A DNA stretch of 64,000 nt from assembly GCA_020692325.1 (NCBI GenBank), contig JAIMKR010000001.1, positions 281,794-345,793 of the forward strand. The letters run 5' to 3'. The notes beneath the pieces are model-generated. The model was not told where the DNA came from. It did not search any database and was given only the letters and a program-made list of their open reading frames with translations. Origin of the DNA: Desulfocurvus sp. Its GTDB lineage: Bacteria; Desulfobacterota; Desulfovibrionia; Desulfovibrionales; Desulfovibrionaceae. Numbering within the stretch: position 1 is the stretch's first letter; each line of letters begins with the position of its first letter. This document shows, piece after piece, positions 8,655 to 13,801 of this stretch. A program made the position numbers and the translations under genes.

Positions 8655-9968
8655 ATGCCTTGCCGAATTCTCCGCGTTCCCGACGACATGGACGCAGCCG
8701 GCCTGCTTGGCTGGCTCTCCGGACGTCGCAACCCCGGGAACGACATCACCACAACCGTGCGTGAGATCCTCGCCGCCGTCAAAAAGGACGGCGACAAGGC
8801 CCTGCGCGCCTACACCAGAAAGTTCGACGCACCCGACCTGCCCGCGCGCTTCCGCGTGGCCGAGAAGGACATCAAGGGCGCGCTCGCCAAAATCCCGGCC
8901 GAGGACGTGGCCATCCTGCGCGAGGCCATCGCCCGCGTACGCGACTTCCACGCCCGGCAGGTCGAGCAGAGCTGGTGGACCACCAGCCCCGACGGCACCA
9001 TCCTGGGCCAGATGGTCCACCCCGTGGACCGCGTGGGGCTATACGTCCCCGGCGGACGCGGCGGCGAGACCCCGCTGCTGTCCAGCCTCATCATGAACGC
9101 GGTGCCCGCCCAGGTGGCCGGCGTCAAGGACATCGCCGTCATCTCGCCCCCACGGCGCGACTCCAGTCTCAACCCGTACATTCTGGCCACGGCCGCCCTG
9201 CTCGGCGTCACCGAGGTGCACCGCGCCGGCAGCGCCTGGGGCATCGCCGCCCTGGCGTACGGCACCGGCAGCATCCGCCCCTGCGACGTCATCGCCGGAC
9301 CGGGCAACATTTTCGTGGCCACGGCCAAGGCCCTGCTTGTGGGCGAAGTCGGCATCGACATGATCGCCGGCCCCAGCGAAATCTGCATCCTGGCCGACGG
9401 TTCCGCCAATCCCGAATACATCGCCGCCGACATGCTCTCCCAGGCCGAGCACGATCCCCTGGCCGCCGCCCTGTGCATCACCCCCAGCCGGCAGCTGGCC
9501 GAGGCCGCGCGCCAGTGTCTGGAAAAACAGCTCGATCCTCTGCCGCGCCGGGAGCTGGCCGCCAAATCCCTCAAGGACTGGGGCGGCATCCTCGTCGTAC
9601 GCGACCTGGAAGAGGCCGTGGAACTGGTGAACAAGATCGCGCCAGAGCACCTGGAGCTGGCCGTGGCCGAGCCCTTCGCCCTGCTGGGCAAGATCCGCAA
9701 CGCCGGGGCCATCTTCCTGGGCCACCACTGCCCGGAACCCGTGGGCGATTACTTCGCCGGGCCCAACCACGTGCTGCCCACTCTGGGCACAGCGCGCTTC
9801 TCCTCGGCCCTGTCCGTGCAGACCTTCTGCAAGAAGTCCAGCATCATCGCCGCATCGCCGGCGTTTCTCGCGCAGCACTGCGGCAAAATCGCCCGGCTGG
9901 CCCGTCTCGAAGGTCTGGAGGCCCACGCCAGAAGCGTGGAAATCCGCCAGTCATCGCTCACAAAATAA
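8655..9968 (+). CDS. hisD: Histidinol dehydrogenase
   Basis: Catalyses the last two steps of histidine synthesis, oxidising L-histidinol to L-histidine with NAD and zinc. The 437-residue product has the family length. Recognisable blocks include the WGIAALAYGTG stretch, the IAGPGNIFVATAKALL segment and the catalytic Glu-His region NKIAPEHLELAV near residues 330-341, followed by the GPNHVLPT motif. The start at 8655 follows a GAGG ribosome site; the frame is open 48 bases further upstream but that extension has no similarity. It leads a run that continues with purC 18 bases later. Confidence 0.95.
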   Translation: MPCRILRVPDDMDAAGLLGWLSGRRNPGNDITTTVREILAAVKKDGDKALRAYTRKFDAPDLPARFRVAEKDIKGALAKIPAEDVAILREAIARVRDFHARQVEQSWWTTSPDGTILGQMVHPVDRVGLYVPGGRGGETPLLSSLIMNAVPAQVAGVKDIAVISPPRRDSSLNPYILATAALLGVTEVHRAGSAWGIAALAYGTGSIRPCDVIAGPGNIFVATAKALLVGEVGIDMIAGPSEICILADGSANPEYIAADMLSQAEHDPLAAALCITPSRQLAEAARQCLEKQLDPLPRRELAAKSLKDWGGILVVRDLEEAVELVNKIAPEHLELAVAEPFALLGKIRNAGAIFLGHHCPEPVGDYFAGPNHVLPTLGTARFSSALSVQTFCKKSSIIAASPAFLAQHCGKIARLARLEGLEAHARSVEIRQSSLTK

Positions 9969-9986
9969 CGACACCGGAGCTTCACC

Positions 9987-10895
9987 ATGCAATGCGTCTC
10001 CCGCACTGATCTCAAGGAATTCCCCCTCGTCTCCCGCGGCAAGGTGCGCGACATCTACGCCGTCGGCCCGGACAGCCTGCTCATCGTCACCACCGACCGT
10101 ATTTCCGCCTTCGACGTCATCATGGACGACCCCATTCCGCACAAGGGCGTCGTGCTCAACCAGATCACCCTCTTCTGGATGGAGAAGTTCGCCGACATGG
10201 TGCGGAACCATCTGCTCGCCACGGACGTGCGCGATTTCCCCGCCGCGCTCAAACCGCACGCCGACCTGCTGGAAGGCCGCGCCGTGCTCGTGCGCAAGGC
10301 CAAGCCCCTGCCCATCGAGTGCATCGTGCGCGGGTACATCACCGGCTCCGGCTGGAAGGACTACCTCAAGAGCGGAAGCGTGTGCGGCCACAAGCTGCCC
10401 GCCGGCCTGCGCGAAAGCGAAAAGCTGGAGAAGCCGTTGTTCACCCCCTCCACCAAGGCGGAGCTGGGCAACCACGACGAGAACATCCCCGTGGCCGAGG
10501 CAATGCGGCTGGCCGGCGAGGACATCGCCAAGCAGGCGCAGGACCTCACCATCGGCATCTACTCCCGCGCGCGCGACTACGCAGCGGAACGCGGCATCAT
10601 CATCGCCGACACCAAATTCGAATTCGGCTTGGTGAACGAGAACGGCAAAAACAAGCTCATCCTCATCGACGAGGTGCTGACCCCGGACTCCTCGCGCTTC
10701 TGGCCCATGAGCGACTACGCCCCCGGCCGCGGTCAGATGAGCTTCGATAAGCAGTTCCTGCGCGACTGGCTGGAGAAGATCAAGTTCAACAAGCAGCCGC
10801 CCGCGCCCAAAATCCCGCAGGACATCATCGACCAGACCCGCGCCAAGTACCTCGACGCCTACCGTCTGCTCACCGGTAAGTCGCTGAACGTATAG
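9987..10895 (+). CDS. purC: Phosphoribosylaminoimidazole-succinocarboxamide synthase
   Basis: Purine biosynthesis enzyme that ligates aspartate to CAIR using ATP. The 302-residue product matches the longer form of the family. Conserved blocks are SRGKVRDIYAV near 17-27, the TDRISAFDVIM segment, IECVVRGY-like IECIVRGYITGSGWKDY, and FEFGLVNENGKNKLILIDEVLTPDSSRFW with the ATP/Mg-binding acidic residues. CGGAG lies before the ATG. A small membrane-protein gene starts only nine bases after the stop. Confidence 0.95.
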   Translation: MQCVSRTDLKEFPLVSRGKVRDIYAVGPDSLLIVTTDRISAFDVIMDDPIPHKGVVLNQITLFWMEKFADMVRNHLLATDVRDFPAALKPHADLLEGRAVLVRKAKPLPIECIVRGYITGSGWKDYLKSGSVCGHKLPAGLRESEKLEKPLFTPSTKAELGNHDENIPVAEAMRLAGEDIAKQAQDLTIGIYSRARDYAAERGIIIADTKFEFGLVNENGKNKLILIDEVLTPDSSRFWPMSDYAPGRGQMSFDKQFLRDWLEKIKFNKQPPAPKIPQDIIDQTRAKYLDAYRLLTGKSLNV

Positions 10896-10904
10896 GGAAT
10901 CCGC

Positions 10905-11051
10905 ATGGACTGGAACTGGCTCGTCCTCGTGGTCATCGTCGTGGGCTGGGTCGCGCTCTCGCGGCTCGCGCCCGGCGGGGGCTGAGGCGCAAAGAGGCAG
11001 TGCGGCTGGACGCCGCCCGCTGACAAGAAGAAGCCCAAGGACAAAAGGTAG
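10905..11051 (+). CDS. Candidate 48-residue membrane selenoprotein (in-frame TGA at 10983-10985)
   Basis: Starting nine bases after purC, the frame encodes 26 residues (MDWNWLVLVVIVVGWVALSR then LAPGGG) with one hydrophobic span, then TGA, then 21 more codons (GAKRQCGWTPPADKKKPKDK R) ending at TAG 11049-11051. Three observations favour reading through TGA as selenocysteine. Eighteen of the 21 downstream codons end in G or C, as in neighbouring genes. A stem-loop resembling a bacterial SECIS follows the TGA. The TAG lies eight bases before the next ATG, giving normal operon spacing, whereas stopping at TGA leaves a 74-base gap. The motif would be GGGUG with a cysteine six residues later and a basic tail. 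If TGA is a stop, the product is a 26-residue membrane peptide (10905-10985). No family is recognised. Confidence 0.55.
10983..11022 (+). promoter_or_regulatory. SECIS-like stem-loop immediately after in-frame TGA
   Basis: Twelve bases after the TGA a hairpin forms: CAGU (10998-11001) and GCGGC (11002-11006) pair with GCCGC (11012-11016) and GCUG (11019-11022), with a two-base CC bulge. The apical loop is UGGAC (11007-11011). The 21-base distance from TGA to the loop and a G within the first two loop bases fit the published general pattern for bacterial SECIS elements, which SelB recognises. This is a hand fold only. Confidence 0.5.
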
Positions 11052-11059
11052 GCGACGCC

Positions 11060-11236
11060 ATGCTTGAATCAATCGCGCTTGCGACGGCCATCGGCGGAGC
11101 CGCCTACGTGGTCTTCCGGTTCGTGCCGCCACACATGGGGGGCTTCGGCGAAGAGGGAGCGGCTGCGCCCGCCAGGGAGACGGACGCAAGGCCGGAGAGG
11201 CCAGCCGAGCTTGACAGCCCGAAACGCAACACGTAA
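11060..11236 (+). CDS. Small membrane protein, unknown function (58 aa)
   Basis: A 58-residue frame with AGGTAGG upstream of its ATG. Residues 1-25 (MLESIALATAIGGAAYVVFR...) form one hydrophobic segment; the rest is a charged, proline- and glutamate-rich tail ending PKRNT. It sits between the candidate selenoprotein gene and rpsF in a tightly packed run. I do not recognise the family. Coding-like third-position composition and operon spacing support it being real. Confidence 0.55.
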   Translation: MLESIALATAIGGAAYVVFRFVPPHMGGFGEEGAAAPARETDARPERPAELDSPKRNT

Positions 11237-11298
11237 GAGCACCTGTCTACCTTGCTCCTCCCCCTGCGGGAAGGGGCCAAAGACCGAAAGGAGATCAC

Positions 11299-11628
11299 AT
11301 GCTGAACCACTACGAGACTCTTGTGCTCATGAGTCCGGAGATGGGCGAGGAGAACCGCAAGGAGATCATCGCCACCCTTTCCGGCATCATCGAGCGCGAC
11401 GGCGGCCAGGTGGGCCTCATCGATGACTGGGGCATCCGCACCCTCGCCTACGCCGTGCGCAAGCAGACCCGCGGCCACTACGTGCGCTTCGACTTCACCG
11501 CCCCCGGCACCGCCGTGGCGGAATTCGAGCGCAACATCCGCATTACCGACGGCCTGTTCAAGTTCGTCACCGTTCGTCTGGACGGCGCCGCTGCTGCCGA
11601 GGCCGCTCCCAGCACCGAGGAGGCCTAA
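11299..11628 (+). CDS. rpsF: 30S ribosomal protein S6
   Basis: Small-subunit ribosomal protein that pairs with S18 on the platform. The 109-residue product begins MLNHYETLVLMSPEM and contains DWGIRTLAYAVRKQTRGHYV and FERNIRITDGLFKFVTVRLD, the typical S6 blocks. AAAGGAGAT precedes the ATG. It begins the conserved rpsF-rpsR-rplI order, four bases before rpsR. The 62 bases upstream include a short C-run/G-run that could fold as CCCC/GGGG; whether it takes part in S6-S18 leader control is unknown. Confidence 0.96.
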   Translation: MLNHYETLVLMSPEMGEENRKEIIATLSGIIERDGGQVGLIDDWGIRTLAYAVRKQTRGHYVRFDFTAPGTAVAEFERNIRITDGLFKFVTVRLDGAAAAEAAPSTEEA

Positions 11629-11631
11629 GCC

Positions 11632-11892
11632 ATGGCGTTCCGCAAAAAGTTCACCCCCAAGAGGAAGTTCTGCCGTTTCTGCGCCGACAAGAACCTGCCG
11701 CTGGACTACAAGCGCCCGGACATCCTGCGCGACTACGTGACCGAGCGCGGCAAGATCATCGCCCGCCGCATCACCGGCACCTGCGCCAAGCACCAGCGCC
11801 GGCTCACCGTCGAGATCAAGCGCGCCAGGCAGATGGCGTTGTTGTTCTACACCACCGTGCATAGCACGGAAGTCAAGAAGAAGACCGTCTAG
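11632..11892 (+). CDS. rpsR: 30S ribosomal protein S18
   Basis: The 86-residue small-subunit protein shows [27 protein letters not shown]-type sequence followed by [26 protein letters not shown], both diagnostic for S18. It keeps a CxxC pair in its N-terminal part (FCRFC). It starts four bases after rpsF and its stop codon overlaps the strong AGGAGG of rplI. Confidence 0.96.
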
Positions 11893-11901
11893 GAGGCCGC
11901 A

Positions 11902-12393
11902 ATGACGATGAAACTCATTTTGCGCGCCGACGTTGATAACCTTGGGCGCCTCGGAGACGTGGTCTCCGTGAAGCCGGGGTTCGGTCGCAACTATTTGATT
12001 CCCCAGGGTCTGGGTATGGTCGCCACCGAGGCCAACCAGAAGCAGTTCGAACTTGAGCACAAGAAGCTGGCCGCCAAGGCCGACGGTCTGCGCGCCGAGG
12101 CCACCGCCTTGGCCGAGAAGATCGCCGCCGCCGCCGTGGTGCTCGCGGTGCGCGTGGGCGAGGGAGACAAGCTCTACGGCTCCGTCACCGCGCACAACGT
12201 GGCCGCCGCGCTCGCCGAGCAGGGCGTCGAGATCGACCGCCGGAAAATCGAGATGCCCGACGCCATTCGCGCCCTTGGCGAGTACACCGTCGTGATCCGT
12301 CTGCACCCGGACGTTCACGCCGAACTCAAACTCCGCGTGATCAAGTATGGCCAGCCGGAATCCGAGCCAGAGCAGCAGCCCGCTGCGGAATAG
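11902..12393 (+). CDS. rplI: 50S ribosomal protein L9
   Basis: Large-subunit protein L9, 163 residues, with the N-terminal 23S rRNA-binding lobe (LGRLGDVVSVKPGFGRNYLIPQGLG near 15-39), a long connecting helix and the C-terminal lobe (LYGSVTAHNVAAAL; ALGEYTVVIRLHPDV). AGGAGG at 11891-11896 precedes two in-frame ATGs; the second, at 11908, starts MKLILRAD as most L9 proteins do and may be the true start. The C terminus is a short Glu/Gln-rich tail that overlaps the start of dnaB. Confidence 0.95.
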   Translation: MTMKLILRADVDNLGRLGDVVSVKPGFGRNYLIPQGLGMVATEANQKQFELEHKKLAAKADGLRAEATALAEKIAAAAVVLAVRVGEGDKLYGSVTAHNVAAALAEQGVEIDRRKIEMPDAIRALGEYTVVIRLHPDVHAELKLRVIKYGQPESEPEQQPAAE

Positions 12394-13801
12394 CCGCGGC
12401 GACAGGGAAGATGGCGCGGAGGCCCTGGAACGGGCCTCCGCCGCTCTCTCGCGTAATGTCCCCCCCCAGAACCTGGAAGCCGAACAGGCGGTTCTCGGGG
12501 GGGTTTTTCTGCGCAATTCGCTGTTCCACTCCCTGGTGGACATCATCCGCAGCGAGGACTTCTACTCCCCCGCGCACAGGATCATCTTCCGCACCTTCGA
12601 GGATCTCTACTCCAAGAACGTGCCCGTGGACCTCATCACCGTCACGGAGCAGCTGACCCAGAACCAGCAGCTCGACGCCGTGGGCGGTCCGGTCTATCTG
12701 GCGGAATTGGCCAGCTCGCCGGTCAGCGCGGCCAACGCCCTGCACCACGCCGCCATCGTGCGCGACAAGGCCATCAGCCGCCGGCTCATCGAGGCCGCCA
12801 GCGAGATCATCGGCAACTGCTACGACTCCAAGGATGTGGAAGGCCTGCTCGATCAAAGCGAACAGACCATTTTCCAGATCTCGGACGTGCGCTCCAAGAC
12901 CACGATTCACACCGGCAAGGAGCTGGTGGACCGCGTGTTCAAGGAGCTGGAAAAGCGCGTGGGCAGGCAGGCCCTGGTCACCGGCATCACCACCGGTTAC
13001 GAGAAGCTCGACGAGATGACCGCCGGCATGCAGAACTCCGACCTCATCATCGTCGCCGCACGCCCATCCATGGGCAAAACAGCCTTCGCGCTCAACATGG
13101 CCCTCAACGCCGCCACCAAGGGCGAAACGCCCACACCCACCGCCGTGTTCTCGCTCGAAATGTCCATGGATCAGATCATGATGCGCATTCTCTGCTGCCA
13201 GGCGCGCGTTGACCTCGTGAACCTCCGGCGCGGCAGCATCGACGACCAGGACTGGGCCAAGCTCTACGACGCCGCCAACATCATTTCCAACGCGCCCATC
13301 TTCGTGGACGACACGCCGGCGCTGTCCACCATGGAGCTGCGCGCGCGCTGCCGCCGCCTCAAGGCCGAGCACAACCTCGGGCTCGTGGTGGTGGACTACC
13401 TGCAGCTCATGCGCGCCAGCCGCGACATCGACTCGCGCGAGCAGGAGATTTCCGACATTTCCCGCAACCTGAAGGCCCTGGCCAAGGAACTGAACATCCC
13501 GGTCATCGCGCTCTCGCAGCTCAACCGCAAGGTTGAGGAACGCAGCGACAAGCGCCCCATGCTCTCGGACCTGCGCGAGTCCGGCGCCATCGAGCAGGAC
13601 GCCGACGTCATCATGTTCATCTACCGCGACGAGGTCTACAACAAGGAAAAGACCCACAAGCCGAACATCGCCGAGATCATCATCGGCAAGCAGCGCAACG
13701 GCCCCGTGGGCGACGTGGAGCTGTACTTCAAAAAGCAGTACAGCCGGTTTGAAAATCTGAACACTTTGGCATATCCTTCCGAATATTTGCCGAACACGTA
13801 G
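12347..13801 (+). CDS. dnaB: Replicative DNA helicase DnaB
   Basis: Hexameric 5'-3' helicase that drives the replication fork. The 484-residue product has the N-terminal DnaB domain (VPPQNLEAEQAVLGGVFL from about 38) and the RecA-like C-terminal domain with Walker A RPSMGKTAF (about 240-248), FSLEMSMDQIMMR, and Walker B LVVVDYLQLM near 346-355. The only ATG before the conserved region is at 12347, inside the last 47 bases of rplI and without a good ribosome site, so translation is probably coupled to rplI. The first 35 residues are not conserved and a non-ATG start slightly downstream remains possible. Confidence 0.94.
   Translation: MASRNPSQSSSPLRNSRGDREDGAEALERASAALSRNVPPQNLEAEQAVLGGVFLRNSLFHSLVDIIRSEDFYSPAHRIIFRTFEDLYSKNVPVDLITVTEQLTQNQQLDAVGGPVYLAELASSPVSAANALHHAAIVRDKAISRRLIEAASEIIGNCYDSKDVEGLLDQSEQTIFQISDVRSKTTIHTGKELVDRVFKELEKRVGRQALVTGITTGYEKLDEMTAGMQNSDLIIVAARPSMGKTAFALNMALNAATKGETPTPTAVFSLEMSMDQIMMRILCCQARVDLVNLRRGSIDDQDWAKLYDAANIISNAPIFVDDTPALSTMELRARCRRLKAEHNLGLVVVDYLQLMRASRDIDSREQEISDISRNLKALAKELNIPVIALSQLNRKVEERSDKRPMLSDLRESGAIEQDADVIMFIYRDEVYNKEKTHKPNIAEIIIGKQRNGPVGDVELYFKKQYSRFENLNTLAYPSEYLPNT

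Follow-up and report, generated by a model that had tools for sequence, protein, structure and literature searches.

This locus raises the question of whether the TGA at 10983-10985 is the stop of a short membrane peptide or an internal codon of a longer protein, read as selenocysteine (Sec). The window, meaning the whole stretch of DNA analysed (64,000 nucleotides), corresponds to C17:281794-345793 in a 3.05-Mb genome of 27 contigs. The frame concerned, termed X1, lies between two ORFs that are presumably purC and rpsF, as the earlier note on this DNA named them. That note had proposed a membrane selenoprotein of 48 residues.

The locus and the predicted product

Features of the locus and of the selenocysteine machinery are as follows.

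9987-10895, forward strand: purC, upstream neighbour of X1, from locus comparison.
10905-11051, forward strand: predicted selenoprotein gene X1, 48 residues, Sec at residue 27, stop TAG at 11049-11051; aligned relatives have TGA at the same codon.
10911-10967, forward strand: predicted single transmembrane helix, about residues 3-21, from the AlphaFold2 helix and the hydropathy of the members.
10983-10985, forward strand: in-frame TGA, putative selenocysteine codon (U27).
11001-11003, forward strand: codon of Cys33, six residues past Sec, an invariant column in an alignment of 73 sequences.
11002-11016, forward strand: hairpin resembling a bacterial SECIS element (bSECIS), GCGGC-UGGAC-GCCGC, stem of 5 bp, -8.2 kcal/mol, not exceptional alone (rank 0.32).
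11060-11236, forward strand: tandem copy X2, in which the TGA column reads GAA, with an apparent frame shift near the end.
11299-11628, forward strand: rpsF, downstream neighbour, from locus comparison.
C17:267213-268598, strand not given: selA, 592 bits.
C17:263810-265717, strand not given: selB, 376 bits.

The X1 frame opens with ATG at 10905, reaches the TGA as codon 27, continues for 21 more codons and ends at the TAG, eight bases before the next ATG at 11060. The earlier note had placed the frame correctly, and its value for third-position bias, G or C in 18 of the 21 codons 3' of the TGA, was obtained again on recounting. The predicted product is MDWNWLVLVVIVVGWVALSRLAPGGG-U-GAKRQCGWTPPADKKKPKDKR, with 21 residues C-terminal to Sec.

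In 8 of 14 loci of the genus (L002, L004, L005, L006, L008, L011, L012 and L013) the interval between X1 and rpsF contains another small membrane frame, which likewise has an in-frame TGA. Five of these eight X2 copies have a hairpin that satisfies the bSECIS rules at -7.5 kcal/mol or below, and four have no Cys past Sec. The X2 motif is present in L007 with an ambiguous start, the copy of L003 looks broken, and no X2 copy is seen in L009, L010 and L014. The window's X2 seems to be a remnant from which Sec has disappeared. Tandem pairs with TGA in each copy, and with motifs that differ between the copies, occur in two genomes of another genus (G301, locus L089; G319, locus L096).

Directly 5' of rpsF, at about 11237-11298, a stretch is alike across many relatives in the genus and reads (A/P)LYLALP-CGKGQ-PKG in one frame. 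It is perhaps an S6/S18 leader RNA; no Rfam model matches 11237-11298 at E 5, and a search of 9900-12500 gave three Rfam matches, all far under the gathering scores.

Conservation past the TGA

The first search covered 149 related genomes, 57 of which match at E 0.1 or below; weaker matches were left unfetched. Thirty loci were fetched and 25 accepted as members, five (L023, L026, L027, L028 and L029) being dropped as chance matches. Of the genus's 15 genomes, 14 are represented among the accepted loci, that of the window included; the missing one, G011, has a completeness of 73%. Each of the 25 loci carries TGA at the Sec codon, with a Cys further on. Both purC and rpsF flank the gene in 20 loci, purC alone in one and neither in four, and in the 20 loci with both neighbours TGA aligns with TGA throughout, which answers the orthologue check proposed in the earlier note.

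A profile of these 25 rows matches 163 of 348 genomes of the class at E 0.01 and 112 of 395 genomes of the phylum at E 0.001, counts in which weak matches were not each checked. Sixty loci picked among the profile hits, five of them repeating earlier ones, have TGA at the Sec codon in 59 cases and a Cys codon in one, never TAA or TAG. With repeats removed, the 59 and the first 25 give 79 distinct TGA members, which as relatives are not independent of one another. The only form seen with cysteine in place of Sec belongs to G049 (L152:6936-7127; also L087), reads ...LPKLGIKNCGSLPGSCKW... and comes from a genome that has selA.

Sequence past the TGA is conserved. The next Cys after Sec stands at +5 to +7 in 75 of the 79 members and at +2, +10, +12 or +18 in the other four, and between 13 and 37 residues follow Sec. 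In an alignment of 73 rows, Met1 and the second Cys are invariant columns. The pattern at the end of the helix, often ..N(R/K)W(V/I)(L/F)P(K/R)xG, is conserved as well as the tail. Sec is enclosed as G-U-G in 34 of the 79 members and preceded by Thr in 34, 23 of the latter reading T-U-M.

With the 73-row profile, matches are found in 152 of the 345 phylum genomes sampled, spread over 104 of 226 genera. Among the 150 matches listed for it, an in-frame TGA is present in 144, and the remaining six stop at profile positions 26-29, short of the Sec column. Thirty loci were fetched on this profile, and among them the fresh loci, from genomes unread before, have TGA plus Cys in 10 of 10. In all, 89 TGA members have been read (79 plus these ten), with TGA and a downstream Cys throughout.

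Among the places listed in the class search with the 25-row profile, five are without TGA and stop at position 29. One of the five, in G051 (L106), when read past position 29, has TGA next and a Cys directly before it (GGGCUGPP); other genomes of its genus give the same helix match in that search.

Hairpin and selenocysteine machinery

Published bSECIS rules ask for a loop of 3-9 nt that starts 16-37 nt past the UGA and has G in its first two bases, on a stem of 4-16 bp with an energy of -7.5 kcal/mol or below, as given in the available part of PMC13188914. The window hairpin agrees with the position and energy rules: its loop begins 21 nt past the UGA, with G at loop position 2, and its energy is -8.2 kcal/mol. 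Energies refer to the hairpin alone and come from an own script, not from bSECISearch. Of the hairpin described in the earlier note, the UGGAC loop 21 bases past the TGA stands; the start of the clean stem is corrected from 12 to 16 bases past it. Against 100 synonymous recodings, 32 do equally well (rank 0.32). The window's hairpin alone proves nothing; it is the family that lifts the finding above chance.

Hairpins within the position rules are found in 79 of 79 members, 54 of them at -7.5 kcal/mol or below. Because the position rules alone are easily satisfied, comparison with controls is important; for members and controls alike, the hairpin used was the best among many. Ranked against 100 synonymous recodings each, the members have a mean rank of 0.104 (n=79; 0.5 expected), and 37 of the 79 fall in the best 5% of their own recodings, where 4 are expected. 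The mean rank is 0.088 outside the genus (n=65) and 0.18 within it; codons +6 to +10 are base-for-base identical in 14 of 14 loci of the genus. With the other TGAs of each locus as controls, the mean rank is 0.108, and -7.5 kcal/mol is reached by 68% of the members versus 11.6% of these control TGAs. The ten fresh loci have a mean rank of 0.115. Twenty-five of the 79 hairpins are weaker than the published cut-off, and L134 and L140 are nearly without a hairpin. The hairpin recurs in relatives on differing stem sequences; stem positions show G-C, C-G, A-U and U-A pairs, a description only, the stems having been chosen for pairing. The Rfam model SECIS_1 finds nothing in the own genome, but it gave no match in any control genome either, so this negative carries no information.

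Besides selA and selB, the genome encodes tRNA-Sec (83 bits) and a selD (315 bits) that itself contains one in-frame TGA. A selA gene over cut-off is present in 276 of 348 genomes of the class and 361 of 395 of the phylum; 280 of the 348 class genomes have a match. Among class genomes positive for the family at E 1e-4, 128 of 137 have a selA match at E 0.001 (2x2 test, p = 3.6e-7), as do 96 of 96 of those at least 98% complete; the nine without a match are 67-96% complete. Since selA is common in the class anyway, the co-occurrence is supportive only. A selA match is missing from at least four family-positive genomes of the phylum set (G412, G481, G600 and G626), and G549 has a marginal one, at E 6e-4; G412 and G600 are 98 and 99% complete. 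In a search with the selA-positive G550 as control, selB is over cut-off in 8 of 13 family-positive genomes without selA, G412 and G600 among them; G481 has fragments resembling selB spread over several contigs, and the other four are under the selB cut-off.

Class genomes without a selA match number 68. In 59 of them no family match is found at E 1e-4, the other nine have TGA, and no Cys form is found among the 68. Without selA the gene is thus mostly absent, and with no Cys form seen there, selenium may be irreplaceable for the job done by X1.

An ordinary stop at the TGA would leave a 26-residue membrane peptide, with the later codons being chance or leader sequence. The short ORF is indeed intact and the window hairpin unremarkable by itself, but this explanation is rejected on the conservation of the protein past the TGA across the phylum, with its invariant Cys column; with TAA and TAG never found at the codon in the 60 profile-hit loci and hairpins stronger than controls, it is considered extremely improbable. 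A second alternative is readthrough in which a near-cognate tRNA, that for Trp or another, decodes the TGA and the extended isoform is free of selenium; conservation alone cannot name the inserted residue. It is very improbable in view of the presence of the family along with the Sec machinery, the SECIS-like hairpin at the right distance and the Cys of the sole member without TGA. In the sequences compared, the UGA is kept, coding continues past it and a SECIS-like hairpin is placed where SelB would read. X1 at 10905-11051 is thus, with high confidence, a tiny selenoprotein with an internal UGA read as selenocysteine, which would be inserted by the ribosome at 10983-10985. The reading as a membrane selenoprotein put forward in the earlier note is supported, the genome having the sel genes, the relatives being conserved past the TGA and the hairpin recurring.

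Membrane topology, proposed chemistry and relatives

AlphaFold2 predicts one helix, residues 3-21, with low confidence past it. A 19-residue stretch with a mean hydropathy of 1.6 or more is present in 78 of 79 members. Positive charge is greater on the C side of the helix in 73 of 79 and equal on both sides in 6, which fits an N-out/C-in orientation; the net charge of the tail is positive in 54 of 79. The protein would have a single N-terminal membrane helix followed by a short, often basic and probably unstructured tail. By the positive-inside rule, the more positive C side most likely places the Sec tail in the cytosol (N-out/C-in).

The proposed tail carries Sec and then the conserved Cys, usually five to seven residues on. 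The two may be linked reversibly as a selenenylsulfide beside the membrane, and the protein would act as a membrane-tethered redox switch or reductase. This chemistry is put at slightly less than an even chance; the four of eight TGA-bearing X2 copies without a Cys past Sec and the low-confidence model past the helix speak against it. Those Cys-less copies are as compatible with a ligand role as with a redox one, and Sec plus Cys in a flexible tail might also bind a metal or metalloid, or carry selenium to another protein, with no redox switch; the second Cys, invariant in the 73-sequence X1 alignment, counts against a tail of this kind, which is judged unlikely. The very small size, the one helix and the conservation of the helix-end pattern as well as the tail would suit an accessory role in a larger membrane complex, as a small subunit with Sec as a contact or ligand. 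A constant partner gene is missing, the commonest neighbour family being present in 8 of the 60 loci compared by a simple ORF caller and BLAST clustering, which may miss distant families, and the accessory role is regarded as rather unlikely.

The eukaryotic proteins SELENOK and SELENOS are single-pass and N-out/C-in, have a cytosolic Sec at or next to the C-terminus in unstructured surroundings, and bind partners of the Derlin/VCP type. The members resemble them in the predicted single helix, in a Sec that is probably cytosolic and in probably unstructured surroundings, and in the G-U-G of 34 of 79 members. They differ in having 13-37 residues past Sec with a conserved Cys among them, in the Thr before Sec in 34 of 79 and in the bacterial SECIS-like hairpin directly past the UGA. 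No Pfam model fits, and eight X1-type proteins give no SelK or SelS match up to E 10, a search in which the filters of HMMER remove most hits with E above about 0.1. The likeness to SelK/SelS named in the earlier note holds as an outline, and kinship is rejected for want of a profile match. In NCBIfam 20.0, nine X1-type and two X2-type proteins match no model over cut-off; two matches to the ATP synthase subunit B' model lie on the helix, at 12-14 bits against a cut-off of 186.

Table 1 of the 2026 catalogue of prokaryotic selenoproteins holds 119 families (PMC13188914). These have a UGA with bSECIS, as predicted for X1, and many entries pair Sec with Cys. By name, domain identifier and motif, which the table gives in place of sequences, no entry among the 119 is a single-helix U-x4-6-C protein of about 50 residues; a match may be hidden under an uninformative entry name. 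Selenobacteriocin (TIGR04081, SGUG) shares the G-U-G around Sec; it has two Sec per protein in that catalogue, and the members have no NCBIfam match. New hypothetical selenoproteins DG, DW and DF have been predicted in the same phylum by deep-Sep, in the available part of PMC12013277. All the new families are said there to have several Cys homologues, whereas the X1 family has nearly none, and the models NF049953, NF041197 and NF049942 for DG, DW and DF give no match to the members in NCBIfam 20.0, as far as that release includes them. For Salidesulfovibrio onnuriiensis IOR2 (3,886,744 bases) the same part of PMC12013277 counts 10 known selenoprotein genes, given without names, and 0 new ones; the X1 family may be among the ten. 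As described there, a candidate is retained by deep-Sep if it has a known Sec homologue or if its top hits include Cys homologues, a filter that would explain its missing the X1 family. No description of the family was recognised in the open-licence literature, as far as the available parts of these texts extend, PMC9312934, PMC1794560 and PMC2398784 included.

The X1 family is apparently an undescribed selenoprotein family, absent from the catalogues checked. It is probably a phylum-wide, nearly Sec-only family of membrane selenoproteins of about 50 residues, overlooked as methods lean on Cys homologues, and a functional counterpart of SelK/SelS; the selA-less G412 and G600 and the ten unnamed genes of PMC12013277 count a little against this reading. 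A family with almost no Cys form would lie in a blind spot of methods built on Sec/Cys pairs. If the reading is true, bacteria would have a functional counterpart of SelK/SelS in the form of a membrane-tethered, disordered Sec tail, and with it a simple bacterial system in which to study membrane-anchored Sec tails like those of SelK and SelS.
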